Positions 5,638-30,671 of a stretch of 32,486 nucleotides of DNA are shown here, piece after piece (the stretch's first letter is position 1; the number at the start of each line of letters is the position of its first letter). The DNA comes from Candidatus Staskawiczbacteria bacterium. Lineage in GTDB: Bacteria > Patescibacteriota > Minisyncoccia > Minisyncoccales > Staskawiczbacteraceae. The notes below the pieces were generated by a model that saw only the letters and a program-made list of their open reading frames with translations, searched no databases and was not told the origin of the DNA. The stretch lies in assembly GCA_903839895.1 (NCBI GenBank), contig CAIMDW010000028.1, positions 1 to 32,486 of the forward strand, given 5' to 3'. Both the position numbers and the translations under genes were made by a program.

Positions 5638-5895
5638 TTATGATAAGTGTTTTGAAACGAGCTTTGTCATCTCAAACATGTTTACCACCGCTTTGCCTCC
5701 AAAAACTTTTTTAAGATTTTCATCGGCGTTGATGTTTCTCTTGTTTGTTTGGTCTTGCAAGTTATTCTTCTTGATGTAAGCCCAAAGTTTTTTGACAACT
5801 TCAGATCTTGGCAACGGACCCTTTCCTACAACTGCTTCTAAATCAGCAGAGAGGGCTAATGGCTTCATGAAAGCCGAATTTGCTTTTCCTGGCAT
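5638..5895 (-). CDS. SWIB/MDM2-domain protein
   Basis: FMKPLALSADLEAVVGKGPLPRSEVVKKLWAYIKKNNLQDQTNKRNINADENLKKVFGG is a classic SWIB pattern. Confidence 0.9.
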   Translation of the reverse strand: MPGKANSAFMKPLALSADLEAVVGKGPLPRSEVVKKLWAYIKKNNLQDQTNKRNINADENLKKVFGGKAVVNMFEMTKLVSKHLS

Positions 5896-7767: not shown

Positions 7768-7795
7768 TTGCTTTTGCCTCGCAAAAGGGTATAAT
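7768..7795 (+). promoter_or_regulatory. Promoter TTGCTT-N16-TATAAT upstream of PheRS
   Basis: -10 ends 8 nt before the ATG at 7804. Confidence 0.65.
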
Positions 7796-7803
7796 TAGGT
7801 AAC

Positions 7804-8943
7804 ATGAACATAGAAATAAACGACCCTAATGAGGGTATTTTGATTAAAAAGCTTGAGGAGAGAACTGATATTAAGGCCGAAAGGATTAAGCATCTTTTGG
7901 CGTTGCCAGATTTGACTAAGAAGGAGAATTCTCCTGTGAAGATAGTGAATGACAAAGTAATGAGCCTGCCGAGATTCTCCAGTTTTGACGTGGTGGAAAT
8001 TCCCAAGGTTGTTACTGTTGAAGATGATTTTGATTTGCTGAATACTCCAAAAGACCATCCGAGCAGAAGGGAATCGGACACTTATTATTTCGATGACGTC
8101 CATATTTTGCGCACGCAGATGACTGTGATGTGGCCATATTACTTCAGGGATAAGGGAGTTTTGGAAAGGCTGGAAAAATATGGCGAAGTGGGATCGCTTG
8201 CGCCAGGAATAGTTTTCAGGAAAGACGAAATTGACAGGAAACATTTCCCAGCTTTTCATCAGACAGATTTTTTGTATGTATGCCGAAGGGATAAGAAAAT
8301 TATTACCCTTGAAGAATTGCAAGACGTCCAGGCAGATGCTGTAAAAGCAATTTTTGGCGACGATATAGAATTTAGGTTTTTGGTTGATACTTTTCCTTTC
8401 ACGGATCCTTCCACTCAAGTGGAAATTAACTGGGGTGGAAATTGGATTGAAATTACTGGCGCAGGACTCGTGCATCCAAATTGCTTGAAAAATTTTGGGT
8501 TAGACCCTGAAGTTTATAATGGCTGGGCGGGAACATTTGGATTGGACAGGGTAGCTATGATAAAATTTGGCATTCCGGATATTAGGATTTTGTGGTCTGA
8601 AGATCCAAGAATTACCAGCCAATTTAAAGACATTAACAGCAAATTTACAGAAGTCAGCAAATATCCTGAAACTTCCCGCGATATTTCTTTTGTGATTGAC
8701 AAGAATATAAACTTGAATAATTATTATGAAATTGTCCGCGATTTTGCAGAGAACTTGATTGAAGAAGTGAAACTGGTGGACGAATTTGAAAATGACGAAA
8801 AATTCGGCAAAGACAAAAAGTCTTACACATTTCGCATTGTTTATCGCAGTCCGGAAAGAACGCTTACAAATGACGAGGTAAATAAAATCCAAGAAGAAAT
8901 TCGCGAAAAAACAAAAACAGATTTAAACGCGGTCTTAAGATAA
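7804..8943 (+). CDS. pheS: Phenylalanyl-tRNA synthetase, PheS catalytic core fused to C-terminal FDX-ACB domain
   Basis: FHQTDFL; GTFGLDRVAMIKFGIPDIRILWSEDPR; C-terminal SKYPETSRDISFVID...YRSPERTLTNDEV is FDX-ACB-like. Confidence 0.88.
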   Translation: MNIEINDPNEGILIKKLEERTDIKAERIKHLLALPDLTKKENSPVKIVNDKVMSLPRFSSFDVVEIPKVVTVEDDFDLLNTPKDHPSRRESDTYYFDDVHILRTQMTVMWPYYFRDKGVLERLEKYGEVGSLAPGIVFRKDEIDRKHFPAFHQTDFLYVCRRDKKIITLEELQDVQADAVKAIFGDDIEFRFLVDTFPFTDPSTQVEINWGGNWIEITGAGLVHPNCLKNFGLDPEVYNGWAGTFGLDRVAMIKFGIPDIRILWSEDPRITSQFKDINSKFTEVSKYPETSRDISFVIDKNINLNNYYEIVRDFAENLIEEVKLVDEFENDEKFGKDKKSYTFRIVYRSPERTLTNDEVNKIQEEIREKTKTDLNAVLR

Positions 8944-8961: not shown

Positions 8962-11106
8962 ATGAAATTAGGAATCAAAGAAGTTGGCGATGAAAAGCCA
9001 GAAAAAAAAGAAAAAATAATTACGCCGAAAAAAGCTGAAAAAGCAAAAGCAGAAAAGCCTGCTAAGGTTTTGGCTGCAAAAAAATCTGAACCGAAGGCTG
9101 AACCAAAAAAGAAAGAGATCGAAGAAGAGCCAAAAGAAGAAAAAAAAGGAGAGAAAAGCACAGCTGAAAAAATAGAAGATAAAAAAGGCAAAGCCAGGAA
9201 AGAAGGGGAATACACTGCCAAAGACATTTATGTTTTGAAAGGTTTGGAGCCTGTGCGAATGAGGCCTGGAATGTATATCGGATCTACTGGAATAGACGGG
9301 CTTCATCATTTGATTTGGGAAGTCGTGGATAACTGCTTAGATGAAGCAATGGCAGGATTCGCCCATAATATTGAAATTATCCTTTTGCCAGATACTCGCG
9401 TAAGAGTATCCGACGACGGCAGAGGAATTCCGGTGGAGAAGCATCCTGACACGGGCAAATCAACCCTGGAAACAGTTTTGACTACTTTGCATGCAGGAGG
9501 AAAATTCGGAGGAGAAGCCTACAAAGTTTCCGGAGGTTTGCACGGAGTGGGTATTTCTGTGGTTTGCGCGCTTTCAACTTGGATGGAGGCAGAGGTCCAC
9601 AAAGATGGAGGAATTTACAAGCAAGAATATGTGAGAGGCGTGCCGAAGTCGCCAGTAAAAAAAGTTGGCGATGCAAAGGACACAGGAACAACCCAAACTT
9701 TTGAATACGACCCTACAATTTTCACTGGCGAACTGAAATACGATCCAAAAAGGATTTTGAACCATTTGCGCCAGCAGGCTTATTTGACCAAAGGTGTAAG
9801 GATTACTTTCCGCGATGAAAGGAAAAAAGGAGAAGAATCCAGCTATACATTTTATTTTGAAGGAGGCGTGGGTTCTTATGTAAAATATTTGGTGCAGGGA
9901 AATACTCCAAGGCATCCGAATATTTTTTCCATTTCTACGGAAAAAGACGGCATTGCTGTGGAAGCTGCTTTCCAATACACGCAAGAAATGGAATGCACCG
10001 AAGAATCTTTTGCAAACAATATTTACACAGTGGAAGGCGGAATGCACATTTCGGGATTCCGCACAGCTTTAACAAGATGCCTGAATGATTACGCAAGGCG
10101 CGAAGGATATTTGAAAGAAAAAGATGAAAACTTTTCCGGAGACGACGTGAGGGAAGGCATGACTGCAGTTGTTTCCGTAAAAATAAGGACACCGCAGTTT
10201 GAAGGCCAAACAAAAGCAAAATTGGGAAATCCGGAAGCAAAACCTGCAGTGGAAGCGGCAACTTCGGAGGGTTTGACAGATTATTTGGAAAGGAATCCAA
10301 GCGACGCCAGAGCTATAATAGAAAACTGCTTGTTGGCAACAAAAGCCAGATTGGCCGCCAAAGCCGCCAGACAGACTGTTTTAAGGAAAGGAGCTTTGGA
10401 AGGATTGGCATTGCCGGGAAAATTGGCAGACTGCTTGTCCCGCAAGCCCGAAGAGTGTGAAATTTACATTGTTGAGGGAGATTCTGCCGGAGGCTCTTCC
10501 AAAATGGCTCGCGACAGGAGATTCCAGGCAATTTTGCCTTTGCGCGGAAAGATTTTGAATGTGGAGCGCGCCAGACTGGATAAAATGTTAATAAACAAGG
10601 AAATAAAATCTTTGGTCATTGCCATGGGAACGGGAATTGGCGAAGACTTTGACATTGAAAAATTGAGATACCACAGGATTATAATTATGACCGATGCCGA
10701 CGTTGACGGAGCGCACATTCGGTGTTTGCTGTTAACATTCTTCTACAGATATTTTAAGCCAGTTGTGGAAGCAGGCCATATTTACAGCGCCCAACCGCCT
10801 TTGTATAAAATTCAGGCAGGGAAAAATGTGCAATATGCGTATTCAGACGACCAACGCGACAAAATTGTAAAAGAAATGGGCAAGGCGTCCACCACAATCC
10901 AGCGATACAAGGGTTTGGGAGAAATGAATCCAGAACAACTTTGGGAAACAACAATGAATCCCGAAAACAGGACTCTGCTTCAGGTTGCAGTGGAAGATGC
11001 TCATCAAGCCGATAAAACCTTAGACATTTTAATGGGCGAAGAAGTGGAGCCTCGCAAGAAATTCATCCAAACCCACGCCAAAGTAGCTAAAAACATTGAT
11101 ACATAA
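8962..11106 (+). CDS. gyrB: DNA gyrase subunit B with Lys/Glu-rich N-terminal extension
   Basis: MRPGMYIGSTG, GGLHGVGISVV, EGDSAGG, PLRGKILNVE, IMTDADVDGAHIR, QRYKGLGEM. Confidence 0.96.
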   Translation: MKLGIKEVGDEKPEKKEKIITPKKAEKAKAEKPAKVLAAKKSEPKAEPKKKEIEEEPKEEKKGEKSTAEKIEDKKGKARKEGEYTAKDIYVLKGLEPVRMRPGMYIGSTGIDGLHHLIWEVVDNCLDEAMAGFAHNIEIILLPDTRVRVSDDGRGIPVEKHPDTGKSTLETVLTTLHAGGKFGGEAYKVSGGLHGVGISVVCALSTWMEAEVHKDGGIYKQEYVRGVPKSPVKKVGDAKDTGTTQTFEYDPTIFTGELKYDPKRILNHLRQQAYLTKGVRITFRDERKKGEESSYTFYFEGGVGSYVKYLVQGNTPRHPNIFSISTEKDGIAVEAAFQYTQEMECTEESFANNIYTVEGGMHISGFRTALTRCLNDYARREGYLKEKDENFSGDDVREGMTAVVSVKIRTPQFEGQTKAKLGNPEAKPAVEAATSEGLTDYLERNPSDARAIIENCLLATKARLAAKAARQTVLRKGALEGLALPGKLADCLSRKPEECEIYIVEGDSAGGSSKMARDRRFQAILPLRGKILNVERARLDKMLINKEIKSLVIAMGTGIGEDFDIEKLRYHRIIIMTDADVDGAHIRCLLLTFFYRYFKPVVEAGHIYSAQPPLYKIQAGKNVQYAYSDDQRDKIVKEMGKASTTIQRYKGLGEMNPEQLWETTMNPENRTLLQVAVEDAHQADKTLDILMGEEVEPRKKFIQTHAKVAKNIDT

Positions 11107-13469: not shown

Positions 13470-14042
13470 ATGATTCTATCTGACGAGGATATCAAAAAAA
13501 ATATCAGAGACGGCATAATAAAAATAACCCCGGCTCCGAATTTTGAAGAACAGTTGGGGCCCTGTTCTTTGGATTTGCATTTGGGAAACAGCTTTAAAGT
13601 TTTCAAAATGAGCAGGTACACTTTCATTGACCTGAAAAATGGAACCAATGTGGATGATATGATGGAAGAAATTATTGTAAAGGACGGCGCCAGCTTTATA
13701 ATCCAGCCGCATGATTTTGTGATTACAGTTACAAAGGAAGAAATAACTTTACCTTCGACCATAATGGGCAGGCTGGACGGCCGAAGCTCATTGGCAAGGC
13801 TTGGCCTGGTAATCCATGTGACGGCCGCCCGGTTTGACCCAGGCTGGAGAGGAAAAGCAGTTATGGAATTGGGGAACTTAGGAACTGTACCGATTGTTTT
13901 ATACGCTGGAATGAGAATTTGCGCCATGACTTTCGAGAGTTTGTCTTCTTTATCGCAAGTACCGTATTTACAGCAGGCAGATCATAAGTACGCCGACCAA
14001 AGCTCAGCGACGGCAAGCAGAATTAATGAAGAGCCAAAATAA
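13470..14042 (+). CDS. dcd: dCTP deaminase
   Basis: GRSSLARLGLVIHVTAARFDPGWRGKAVMEL catalytic region intact. Confidence 0.92.
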   Translation: MILSDEDIKKNIRDGIIKITPAPNFEEQLGPCSLDLHLGNSFKVFKMSRYTFIDLKNGTNVDDMMEEIIVKDGASFIIQPHDFVITVTKEEITLPSTIMGRLDGRSSLARLGLVIHVTAARFDPGWRGKAVMELGNLGTVPIVLYAGMRICAMTFESLSSLSQVPYLQQADHKYADQSSATASRINEEPK

Positions 14043-14043
14043 T

Positions 14044-15036
14044 ATGGAAAAACAGCATCCGGAGTACCAATATTTGCACTTAATGGAAGAGTTGCTTGAA
14101 AAGGGTTGCGAACAGACTGATGCGGGAACGGGCGTAAAAACCTACAGCCTTTTTGGCAAGCAGATGAGGTTTGATTTGTCCGAAGGATTTCCTTTGCTGA
14201 CCACTAAAAAAGTTTATTGGAAAGGAGTCATAGAAGAGCTTTATTGGTTTATGTCTGGGCAGAAAAACATAAAATATCTGGTAGACAAGAATGTGCATAT
14301 TTGGGACGATTATCCATACAGGATTTACAATGAAAAAGTAGACAAAGGTGCAGAGCCTGTAATGACAAAAGACGAATTCATTGAAAAAATTGCAAAGGAT
14401 GAGGAATTTGCAAAAAAGCATGGGAATTTGCCGTTTGTTTATGGTGATTTGTGGCGCCACTGGCCCACAAAAACGCCGGGCAGGACAGTTGACCAACTGC
14501 AATGGATTGTAGACAATGTGCGAAAAGACAAAAGCACTCATTCAGCAATTGTAAATGTTTGGAACCCGGAATATTTGTATGAAATGGCTTTGCCTGGTGA
14601 AGGTTGCCGTTTTCCAATCTGCCATAATATGTTTCAGATAAATACAAATGGAGGAAAATTATCGCTTCAGCTTTACCAGCGTTCAGCCGACATATTTTTG
14701 GGAGTGCCATTCAATATTGCAAGCTATGCTTTGCTGACAATGATTCTGGCACAAATAACAGGAAACCAGCCGGGAGAATTCATCCATACTTTTGGAGATG
14801 TCCATTTTTACGAAGATCACGTGGAAGCTATAAAAGAGCAATTACAAAGGGACCCAAAGCCTTTGCCAACAATAAAAATTGACTCAAGCATCAAAGAAAT
14901 TGACGACTTTAAGCCGGAATTGGTTGAACTGATAGGCTATGATTCGCACCCGACAATAAAAGCTTCGCTGACTCCGGTGGGAGGATTGGTAACGCAAAGT
15001 TGGCGCGACAATTGGAAAAAATTAACAAAATCATAA
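14044..15036 (+). CDS. thyA: Thymidylate synthase
   Basis: FPLLTTKKVYWKGVIEELYWF; FPICHNMFQ; LYQRSADIFLGVPFNIASYALL; start reassigned to the ATG at 14044. Confidence 0.96.
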   Translation: MEKQHPEYQYLHLMEELLEKGCEQTDAGTGVKTYSLFGKQMRFDLSEGFPLLTTKKVYWKGVIEELYWFMSGQKNIKYLVDKNVHIWDDYPYRIYNEKVDKGAEPVMTKDEFIEKIAKDEEFAKKHGNLPFVYGDLWRHWPTKTPGRTVDQLQWIVDNVRKDKSTHSAIVNVWNPEYLYEMALPGEGCRFPICHNMFQINTNGGKLSLQLYQRSADIFLGVPFNIASYALLTMILAQITGNQPGEFIHTFGDVHFYEDHVEAIKEQLQRDPKPLPTIKIDSSIKEIDDFKPELVELIGYDSHPTIKASLTPVGGLVTQSWRDNWKKLTKS

Positions 15037-15038
15037 AT

Positions 15039-15578
15039 ATGTTCATTGGAGCAAAACAATTATTGGAATTGGTGAAAGAAAAAAAGCTAATGGAAGGGCT
15101 TTGCGAAAGGGAATTGACCACACCCGAAGGCGCGGGCTTTGACATAAGAATTGGCGAGCTTTATAAAATTTCTGGCAAAGGATTTATGGGCGTGACTGAA
15201 AGGGAAACGCCAGACATGGAATTGGTGGCAAAATTCGAGGAAGGAAAAACCACCCGTATAACTTTAGATCCAAAAGTTTATTACTTAATGAAGACAATTG
15301 AAAAGGTAAATATGCCAAATGACCTTCTGGCAATTTCCACCCCAAGGTCAACTTTGTTCAGGTCAGGAGTTTATATTTTTGGCGGGCAGGTGCCTCCCGG
15401 ATACTGCGGAGAATTGTCCATGGGAATTTATAACTTCCGCGACAGCCCGTTTGATTTAGAAATGGGAGCCCGCGTTTTGCACATAATGTTTTCAGAAGTG
15501 GCAGGCGAATCAAATAATTACAAAGGCCAATGGCAAGGAGGCCGAGTAACCACAGAACAAAAAGAAACCCAAATATAA
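15039..15578 (+). CDS. Divergent dCTP deaminase/dUTPase-fold protein
   Basis: STPRSTLFRSGVYIFGGQVPPGYCGELSMGIYN aligns with Dcd/Dut motifs; start reassigned to the ATG at 15039. Confidence 0.7.
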   Translation: MFIGAKQLLELVKEKKLMEGLCERELTTPEGAGFDIRIGELYKISGKGFMGVTERETPDMELVAKFEEGKTTRITLDPKVYYLMKTIEKVNMPNDLLAISTPRSTLFRSGVYIFGGQVPPGYCGELSMGIYNFRDSPFDLEMGARVLHIMFSEVAGESNNYKGQWQGGRVTTEQKETQI

Positions 15579-28250: not shown

Positions 28251-30671
28251 ATGGCTTTTAAAAAAAAATCCAAATATATTTATTCTGCATTGGTGGTATC
28301 ACTTGCATTTTTGTCGATATCCGCAGTTTTTTATTTTGGTTTATTAAAAGCTCCAATGGTTATTGCCGGTCCGCACTGCAATTCAAGCGATTTTTCATGC
28401 GGAGATATTTGCTGTCCGAAATGCATGGATATATGGTGCATACAAACAGTGGGATGCAGCGATGCAACAGATACGCTTCCAATGTGTGGGCCGAATGATG
28501 ATCCCGCATGTTGTGATTTGGCGGCTACCGGTCAAGCTTCAAGTGGTCCCGCAGGTTCTGGTGGGTATACTTGCGTTTACAACAAAGTTGGCACCTGCAT
28601 TACTGGCGGAGGCACGGGAGGAGGTGGTGGCGGAGGCGGCAGCGGTAGTAACGACTATAGTTCTGATTCATCTTCGGACAGCAGTTCGGATTCAAGTTCA
28701 GATTCATCTTCAGACAGCAGTTCGGATTCAAGTTCCGATTCATCTTCAGATAGCAGTTCTAGCTCTTCTAGTTCAAGTTCTTCAAGTTCTAGTTCTTCTA
28801 GTTCTAGCTCTTCTAGCTCAAGTTCGAGTTCTAGTTCTTCGAGTTCGAGCTCTAGTTCAAGCTCATCAAGCTCTAGTTCTTCCAGTTCTAGCTCTAGTTC
28901 AAGCTCATCAAGCTCGAGCGAGCCTCCAAGCAGTTCATCGATAAGTTGTTCTGGATCAAATGATTGCATGAATTATCCTCCATACGCTTCAAATCTAGCG
29001 GAGATTTCAAATTTTTCGTGCCCTCTTCCTGATAGAACAGATCGCGCAGGGACAGTGTCTTTCCAATGGACTTACTATGACGGCGGATCTGGCGAAGGGG
29101 AAACGCAATATCAGCTTCAGGTTTATAGTTCTGATCCGGATTCAGCAGAAATCAATATAAGCCGTACTGTCAGCCCTTCATTACCAAACGGCACTGTCAA
29201 TACTGAAGATAATGATGGAAATTATTTTTTAGTAAATCCATTTAATGCAGTTTCTGGCGGAGGTTATCTGACTTACGGGAAAACTTATAATATTCGCATA
29301 AAAGTTTGGAATATTTACGGCGAGTCAGATTGGGAAAATTTAGGCACTTATACAACGCCAGCAAATTCTTTGCCTAATCCGAGTTTTAATGTCAATCCTT
29401 CCAACGCAGCTCCAGGCAGGCAAATTTTATTTGCAGATTCATCCATTTGCAGAAAATCAGACAATAGCGCTTACAATTGCAAAACTCAAGTTAATGGATA
29501 TGTAAATTATATTTGGGATTTTGGCGATAGCTATTGCAATAAACATCCTTTAGATGCGATGTGTAAAAAAATAGGCGATAACATTTATTCATATTCTAGC
29601 GGAAATATATATAACACACAATTGCAAGTTTGTGATTCTATGGGGTGCTGTGACGCGCCGCACGAATCTGTAACGATCACTTCCGGTTCGCATTGCGACA
29701 GTTCAAGCCCGTCAAAGTGCACTGCAAACGGGCATGGCAAAGAATGCAGTTCCGATCCTGATTGCTCTGGCCAACAGCCGGTTTGCAATGCAAGCAATAA
29801 ATGCGTGATTGGGGGGACAGGATGCATATGCGACACAGTTGGAAGCTTGGGCGACTCCCAGTGCGGAGCTTATTCGGTTAATCCGACATGCAATAGCGCC
29901 GGCCAATGCATTGCTTGCGGAGGCGGAGCTGTATGCAGCTTAGCAAATAATTTGGGTGACGGCCGAAACAGCGGTTGCGTGCCTTCGGCGATAAATTTGT
30001 CTCACACTCCGCCAGATTGTTCAAACGAAGTATTTTTTAATTGGCAAAACTATAATTTTACCGCTAGTACCGATTCGAGAATTTATTTACAAGTAACAGA
30101 CACTTCCGATTCAAGCGTTGCGATTAGCAGAGTTATATGCGGTACAGATACAACTTCCCAATATTCAGATACTAAGATGTCAAACCCCATAATATCAGCT
30201 ACTATGGGGTGCGATGGTATTATTTATGCTTATCCAGATGTGCTTTTATATGGAAAAACTTATAGATGGAAAGTTAAAATTTGCAACAATGCAAGCAATT
30301 GCAGTGCATGGATAATTGAGCCATCAGTAGTTACAACTTCGGCCCACTCTTTCCCTGATGTTAAATTTACAAATATTGCGTCGGCTGTTGTCGGCAGTTC
30401 GGTAAAATTCACCGATAATTCAAAATGTTACAATTCTCCGACTGGCAATTGCAAAGACGCTTCAGGAGTAACATATACTTGGAGTAATGTAAATAATAAT
30501 CCTGCTATCCATACAGTTGGTGATATAACTTCGAATGCGTATTCTAGCGCAGGAGAATTTTCTCCAAGCCTGATGATTACAGATGATGTGGGTACTTGCT
30601 CTGCTAATGGTTCTTTAGAAATCACCAAAAAAGGAACTTTGCCAGGTTGGAAGGAAATCAATCCTTTTTAG
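28251..30671 (+). CDS. Large secreted surface protein: signal/TM, Gly linker, Asp-Ser/poly-Ser stalk, duplicated FN3-like/PKD-like modules
   Basis: N-terminal TM; SSSD repeats; PSFNVNPSNAAPGRQILFADSS...YIWDFGDS PKD-like; second copy VKFTNIASAVVGSSVKFTDNS. Confidence 0.85.
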   Translation: MAFKKKSKYIYSALVVSLAFLSISAVFYFGLLKAPMVIAGPHCNSSDFSCGDICCPKCMDIWCIQTVGCSDATDTLPMCGPNDDPACCDLAATGQASSGPAGSGGYTCVYNKVGTCITGGGTGGGGGGGGSGSNDYSSDSSSDSSSDSSSDSSSDSSSDSSSDSSSDSSSSSSSSSSSSSSSSSSSSSSSSSSSSSSSSSSSSSSSSSSSSSSSSSSSSSSSSEPPSSSSISCSGSNDCMNYPPYASNLAEISNFSCPLPDRTDRAGTVSFQWTYYDGGSGEGETQYQLQVYSSDPDSAEINISRTVSPSLPNGTVNTEDNDGNYFLVNPFNAVSGGGYLTYGKTYNIRIKVWNIYGESDWENLGTYTTPANSLPNPSFNVNPSNAAPGRQILFADSSICRKSDNSAYNCKTQVNGYVNYIWDFGDSYCNKHPLDAMCKKIGDNIYSYSSGNIYNTQLQVCDSMGCCDAPHESVTITSGSHCDSSSPSKCTANGHGKECSSDPDCSGQQPVCNASNKCVIGGTGCICDTVGSLGDSQCGAYSVNPTCNSAGQCIACGGGAVCSLANNLGDGRNSGCVPSAINLSHTPPDCSNEVFFNWQNYNFTASTDSRIYLQVTDTSDSSVAISRVICGTDTTSQYSDTKMSNPIISATMGCDGIIYAYPDVLLYGKTYRWKVKICNNASNCSAWIIEPSVVTTSAHSFPDVKFTNIASAVVGSSVKFTDNSKCYNSPTGNCKDASGVTYTWSNVNNNPAIHTVGDITSNAYSSAGEFSPSLMITDDVGTCSANGSLEITKKGTLPGWKEINPF
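28665..28758 (+). repeat. 36-nt tandem repeat encoding DSSSDSSSDSSS, about 2.5 copies
   Basis: GATTCATCTTCrGACAGCAGTTCGGATTCAAGTTCm at 28665 and 28701, partial at 28737. Confidence 0.85.
28756..28920 (+). repeat. Low-complexity poly-serine tract (AGY/TCN codons), with a 26-nt exact repeat at 42-nt spacing (28848, 28890)
   Basis: AGCTCTAGTTCAAGCTCATCAAGCTC occurs twice. Confidence 0.85.

Follow-up and report, generated by a model that had tools for sequence, protein, structure and literature searches.

A single-chain phenylalanyl-tRNA synthetase as the probable sole PheRS of a Staskawiczbacteria genome and its relatives

In other bacteria, the FDX-ACB domain is the C-terminal domain of PheT, the subunit that pairs with PheS in bacterial phenylalanyl-tRNA synthetase (PheRS). 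The gene studied here encodes a PheS-type core and an FDX-ACB domain in one protein, and lies in the window, by which we mean the whole analysed stretch of 32,486 nucleotides (contig CAIMDW010000028.1, assembly GCA_903839895.1, Candidatus Staskawiczbacteria bacterium). It raises the question of whether a bacterium can rely on such a chain as its only PheRS, without the editing domain of PheT, and how the chain relates to the mitochondrial enzymes, the only ones for which reviews list a monomeric PheRS (PMC3275996; PMC11580382, AARS Online).

Domain layout, catalytic motifs and fold

The features of the gene are collected in Table 1. The core model tRNA-synt_2d scores 176 bits against the ORF (Pfam cut-off 19.8) and FDX-ACB 93 bits (cut-off 31.1), the latter over profile positions 1-94 of 94. 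The reading given in the initial annotation, a PheS core followed directly by an FDX-ACB domain made up of the C-terminal 95 aa, is thus confirmed, and so is its observation that gyrB comes next with no pheT following, since gyrB starts at 8962 and the window holds no pheT. Homologous single chains were found in 51 bacterial loci at 56-83% identity. Compared with the homologue L009, substitutions are distributed over the three codon positions as 54/36/207, mostly in third positions, with a dN of about 0.12 and a saturated dS (NG86), and therefore the gene is under purifying selection. The putative -10 box suggests that the PheRS mRNA would have little or no leader, and several relatives likewise have -10-like boxes, placed 8-14 nt ahead of their start codons.

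Table 1. Features of the single-chain PheRS gene in the window
Feature	Coordinates	Strand	Basis
Single-chain PheRS gene, 379 aa	7804..8943	+	ATG at 7804, stop ends at 8943; ORF, Pfam, 51 homologous loci, AF2 model
Class II catalytic core, PheS type, residues 37-274	7912..8625	+	Pfam tRNA-synt_2d, 1.3e-51
Motif 2 region GIVFRKDEIDRKHFPAFHQ, residues 135-153	8206..8262	+	Alignment with bacterial PheS and human mitochondrial PheRS
Phe-pocket motif FPFTDPS, residues 197-203	8392..8412	+	Aligns with FPFTEPS (PheS) and FPFTHPS (human mitochondrial PheRS)
Motif 3 region GTFGLDRVAM, residues 243-252	8530..8559	+	Aligns with GLGLERLAM (human mitochondrial PheRS) and GMGMERLTM (E. coli PheS)
FDX-ACB anticodon-binding domain, residues 285-379	8656..8940	+	Pfam FDX-ACB, 1.6e-26; PheT-model positions 692-798
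TATAAT, possible -10 box (putative)	7790..7795	+	Sequence; 8 nt ahead of the ATG

When aligned with human mitochondrial PheRS (mtPheRS) and bacterial PheS, the window protein keeps motifs 2 and 3, the FPF pocket and the pocket alanine of GWA, and within motif 2 the residues R139, D141, D144, H147, F151, H152 and Q153 are invariant among 16 relatives. The retention of motif 2, FPFTDPS and motif 3 as in active PheRS supports the reading as an active enzyme. Two positions vary. The residue after Q-x, which we take to be equivalent to E220 of Thermus PheS, is Glu in PheS and Asp in the window protein, while a large part of a second Patescibacterial clade has Gly there. At the second Phe of FPF, many relatives carry Tyr, namely the second clade and some near relatives. 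With this Asp and the Tyr of the relatives, a substrate other than Phe is unlikely but conceivable.

By sequence, the closest solved structures are the human mtPheRS entries (1e-52, or 2e-70 with a family profile). An AlphaFold2 (AF2) model built from 16 relatives (mean pLDDT 85.4, pTM 0.77) has human mtPheRS entries as its PDB fold matches 1-7, with a TMq of 0.73-0.75 to the closed forms and of 0.56 to the open, tRNA-bound 3tup, and the model is therefore closed-like.

PheRS inventory and the editing domain

A search of the whole window genome (593 kb, a 45-contig draft, 86% complete) with the bacterial PheT model matched only the FDX-ACB piece of the window gene, and the PheS-core model returned no second pheS, its hits being the window gene and a weak partial match (3.3e-6) in another ORF. 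The absence of PheT proposed for this protein thus stood up to the genome-wide search, which found no intact pheT elsewhere. A tRNA-Phe(GAA) gene is present on contig C17. Given that the genome is only 86% complete, the absence of pheT rests on the relatives, several of which are assembled in 1-6 contigs and are 98-100% complete: the single chain occurs without pheT in G017 (1 contig, 98%), G280 (2 contigs, 100%), G361 (3 contigs, 100%) and G175 (6 contigs, 100%).

Within the window family, 34 of 36 genomes have the single chain only; both enzymes were found in one (G003, rated 4% contamination) and neither in one (G024). In the order sample of 119 genomes, 15 have the single chain only and 103 have PheT (both counts, like the 25 below, read by hand from the result tables), neither enzyme was found in one poor genome, and the two never occur together. 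Across the phylum sample of Patescibacteria, a full-length or edge-truncated single chain was found in 25 of 287 genomes, none of which showed PheT beyond FDX-ACB, their best PheT-model match being no stronger than about 1e-33, the level to be expected from FDX-ACB by itself. The carriers include Staskawicz-, Nealson-, Moran-, Wildermuth-, Ryan- and Portnoybacteria. The single-chain PheRS is thus a lineage trait, and both its architecture and the exclusive use of its gene are well supported. Two genomes depart from the common patterns. In G350 (family f154), a single-contig Patescibacterium of about 700 kb and 94% completeness, no PheT, single chain or convincing PheS core was found, so that this is possibly a genome without a recognisable PheRS of its own. 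G083 has two single-chain genes (L134 and L137) that are 69% identical to each other and may stem from duplication, transfer or its 3% contamination.

The initial annotation also proposed that the PheT editing domain is missing, and this was corroborated: a search for the B3/B4 domain (PF03483) found none in the window genome and none in 32 of the 33 single-chain-only genomes covered, many of them 97-100% complete, but detected it in 7 of 7 genomes having pheT. The threonyl-tRNA synthetase of the window retains its tRNA_SAD editing domain, so the loss of proofreading is not general in this genome. The accessible parts of a study of CPR synthetases describe many PheRS beta subunits without the B2 domain (PMC5370408), with which the PheT matches of our order sample, starting at position 158, agree; we found no report of a single-chain PheRS in those parts. 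Nor did the open-licence literature searched yield a report of a monomeric or single-chain PheRS in Patescibacteria, an earlier description elsewhere being possible.

The tRNA-Phe of the window genome (C17:14666-14739, L128) has A18 and the T-loop TGCAAGT, where G18 and TTCRAAT are usual. As this variant is also seen elsewhere in the order, in single-chain and PheST genomes alike, and the PheST genomes G114 and G054 share the unusual D/T-loop pair, co-evolution of the tRNA with the single chain was rejected.

Relation to the mitochondrial enzyme and replacement among Patescibacteria

With mitochondrial PheRS (FARS2, yeast MSF1; TIGR00469; 'PheRS-M' in AARS Online) the window protein shares the union of a PheS core and FDX-ACB in a single chain about 380-420 aa long, without PheT or the editing domain, and human mtPheRS, its best structural match, is 36-39% identical to it. 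The mitochondrial enzyme, however, is organelle-targeted, whereas the window enzyme is bacterial, chromosomal and apparently the only PheRS of its genome, and has about 10-12 extra residues before motif 2 in comparison with the human one. Bacterial PheST (PheRS-B alpha and beta) has a homologous core in PheS, about 28-40% identical to that of the window protein, and a homologous FDX-ACB in PheT (B8), but it consists of two subunits, encoded by separate pheS and pheT genes that the window genome does not have, with the domains B1-B7, including the B3/B4 editing site, that the window chain lacks.

Among the NCBIfam models, the best for the window protein is SrmL ('PheS-related mystery ligase', NF051887) with 247 bits (cut-off 300; relatives score 223-234), followed by mitochondrial PheRS (TIGR00469) with 237.9 bits, just below its cut-off of 258.35 (three relatives score 224-238), bacterial PheS with 170 bits (cut-off 237) and PheT with 84 bits (cut-off 403), the last over the FDX-ACB part only. 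As all of these scores are below cut-off, the protein is claimed by no curated family.

The main tree was computed from the joined core and FDX-ACB of 38 Patescibacterial chains, human mtPheRS, and bacterial and Patescibacterial PheST; SrmL was removed because its placement in the full tree was weak (22/64). A branch with a support of 100/100 divides all single chains, human mtPheRS among them, from all PheST, and one with 99/97 divides the 38 Patescibacterial chains from human mtPheRS plus PheST. All PheST likewise fall on one side in the trees of the core alone (100/99) and of FDX-ACB alone (97/90), human mtPheRS lying inside the second Patescibacterial clade in the latter. The window protein therefore groups with mitochondrial PheRS apart from PheST, as judged from one mitochondrial sequence. 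The label 'mitochondrial-like' given to it at the outset holds for its architecture and its nearest solved structure; it does not hold for the TIGR00469 score, nor for the full-length tree, where human mtPheRS lies outside the bacterial single chains. The trees are unrooted, and the sole mitochondrial sequence has a long branch, of a kind for which the program warns of long-branch joins. The sequence comparison would fit one origin of the fused PheRS common to mitochondria and Patescibacteria, and given the unrooted trees and the long, single mitochondrial branch we do not claim a capture of the gene by mitochondria from Patescibacteria.

In many relatives the PheRS gene precedes gyrB, nusG and rplK being close by, and the PheRS identities among these gyrB-linked loci are similar to the gyrB identities, which indicates vertical descent at this locus. 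Only gyrB, nusG and rplK recur among the neighbours of the relatives' PheRS, and no other conserved operon partner or candidate for an editing partner was seen. A stand-alone 85-aa SWIB/MDM2-domain protein (5638-5895, minus strand, 6.9e-31) lies upstream of the PheRS gene here and in many Staskawiczbacteria (identity 83-89%). Elsewhere in the window, two putative dCTP-deaminase-like ORFs (13470-14042 and 15000-15578) flank a putative thyA in the region 13470-15578 and are followed by putative MazG-like and folA ORFs, and 28251-30671 encodes a protein of 806 aa that looks secreted and has a PKD domain as well as a very long DSSS/poly-Ser repeat.

Both PheRS states occur within the families f8, f9, f11, f24, f29, f33, f43, f48, f53, f78, f103 and f117, and in different species of the genera g19 (G045 and G114) and g60 (G088 versus G130 and G146). 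The presence of both states inside these two genera implies repeated replacement of one PheRS by the other. Numerous such events are required, whether in one direction or in both, and lateral transfer is their likely route, with no single event proved. We do not claim a recent transfer in genus g37, where G102 has a single chain 81% identical to that of the window and G063 has PheST, because the G102 gene is on an 8-kb contig and its valS is 33% identical to the best match in G063, so that misbinning is possible.

Proposed function and its alternatives

Taken together, we are highly confident that the window gene encodes the sole, editing-less PheRS of this Patescibacterium of the Staskawiczbacteria lineage. 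The PheS-like core would make Phe-adenylate and charge tRNA-Phe(GAA), and the fused FDX-ACB would read the anticodon, one chain standing in for the (alpha-beta)2 heterotetramer. If human mtPheRS is taken as the analogue, the chain is probably an active monomer in which FDX-ACB would swing from the closed to the open state upon tRNA binding. Without B1-B7 and their B3/B4 site, the rejection of Tyr would fall to the synthetic site alone, and Tyr-tRNA-Phe would probably not be cleared in cis, which by the same analogy would amount to a loss of PheRS proofreading.

The alternatives concern what the chain does, whether the inventory is complete and where editing takes place. The protein could be an SrmL-like paralogue of PheS with no part in charging tRNA-Phe for translation, the real PheRS having been missed in the assembly; SrmL is, after all, bacterial, has the same two-domain architecture in one chain and provides the best NCBIfam model. 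True SrmL members, however, score 423-524 bits against NF051887, whereas the Patescibacterial single chains reach 223-247, and SrmL proteins lack the FPF motif that the window protein has, so that SrmL membership was ruled out. SrmL also differs in its low identity to the window protein (26-29%; about 26-30% with human mtPheRS included), and the examples found are plasmid- or phage-borne: the plasmid proteins L059 (Glutamicibacter) and L060 (Azotobacter), and L061 from a 635-kb uncultured phage (LR745206.1), a single-chain PheS/FDX-ACB protein with 423 bits. Moreover, the single chain is the sole PheRS candidate in many genomes, including several of those in 1-6 contigs, and is almost never found together with PheST. 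We thus consider a paralogue of this kind very unlikely, and SrmL as a separate branch that has its architecture in common with the Patescibacterial single chains. Two scans of viral_contigs for relatives of the window PheRS gave none, and virus-borne carriers were therefore dropped as a candidate.

Even less credible is an artefact, in which pheT was lost in an assembly or binning gap or a eukaryotic contaminant gene entered the contig. The draft state of the window genome would allow for it, but many metagenomes assembled independently of each other show the gene next to gyrB, nusG and rplK, its close homologues are found in all 51 bacterial loci mentioned above, the single chain recurs without pheT in the single-contig G017, and its GC content of 0.387 is ordinary for a window of 0.401. 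A third alternative accepts the protein as a PheRS and places proofreading in trans, in a free-standing B3/B4-type deacylase or in D-Tyr/AlaX-like enzymes. Within the window family, G007 and G017 have free-standing proteins of 252 and 233 aa with B3/B4 matches of 4.6e-19 and 9.4e-9, respectively, but with B3/B4 missing from the window genome and nearly all other single-chain genomes searched, such editing is improbable here, if less so than the two preceding alternatives.

A sole PheRS without an editing domain remains our preferred reading, and a wider proposal, to which we give slightly less than even weight, may be added to it. The single-chain PheRS would have a single bacterial origin, one that predates mitochondria or lies outside them, and the mitochondrial enzyme would belong to a bacterial single-chain lineage still present in Patescibacteria, where it moves by lateral transfer, instead of being a fusion made by eukaryotes; a large set of bacteria would then translate without PheRS proofreading. 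A bacterial single-chain PheRS that repeatedly replaces PheST breaks the rule that the monomer design is confined to mitochondria, and the Patescibacterial chains provide a source lineage for testing where mitochondrial PheRS came from. As a small bacterial PheRS encoded by one gene, the enzyme would be usable in orthogonal-translation work, and sister species that differ in having PheRS editing form a natural set for measuring Phe-to-Tyr mistranslation.
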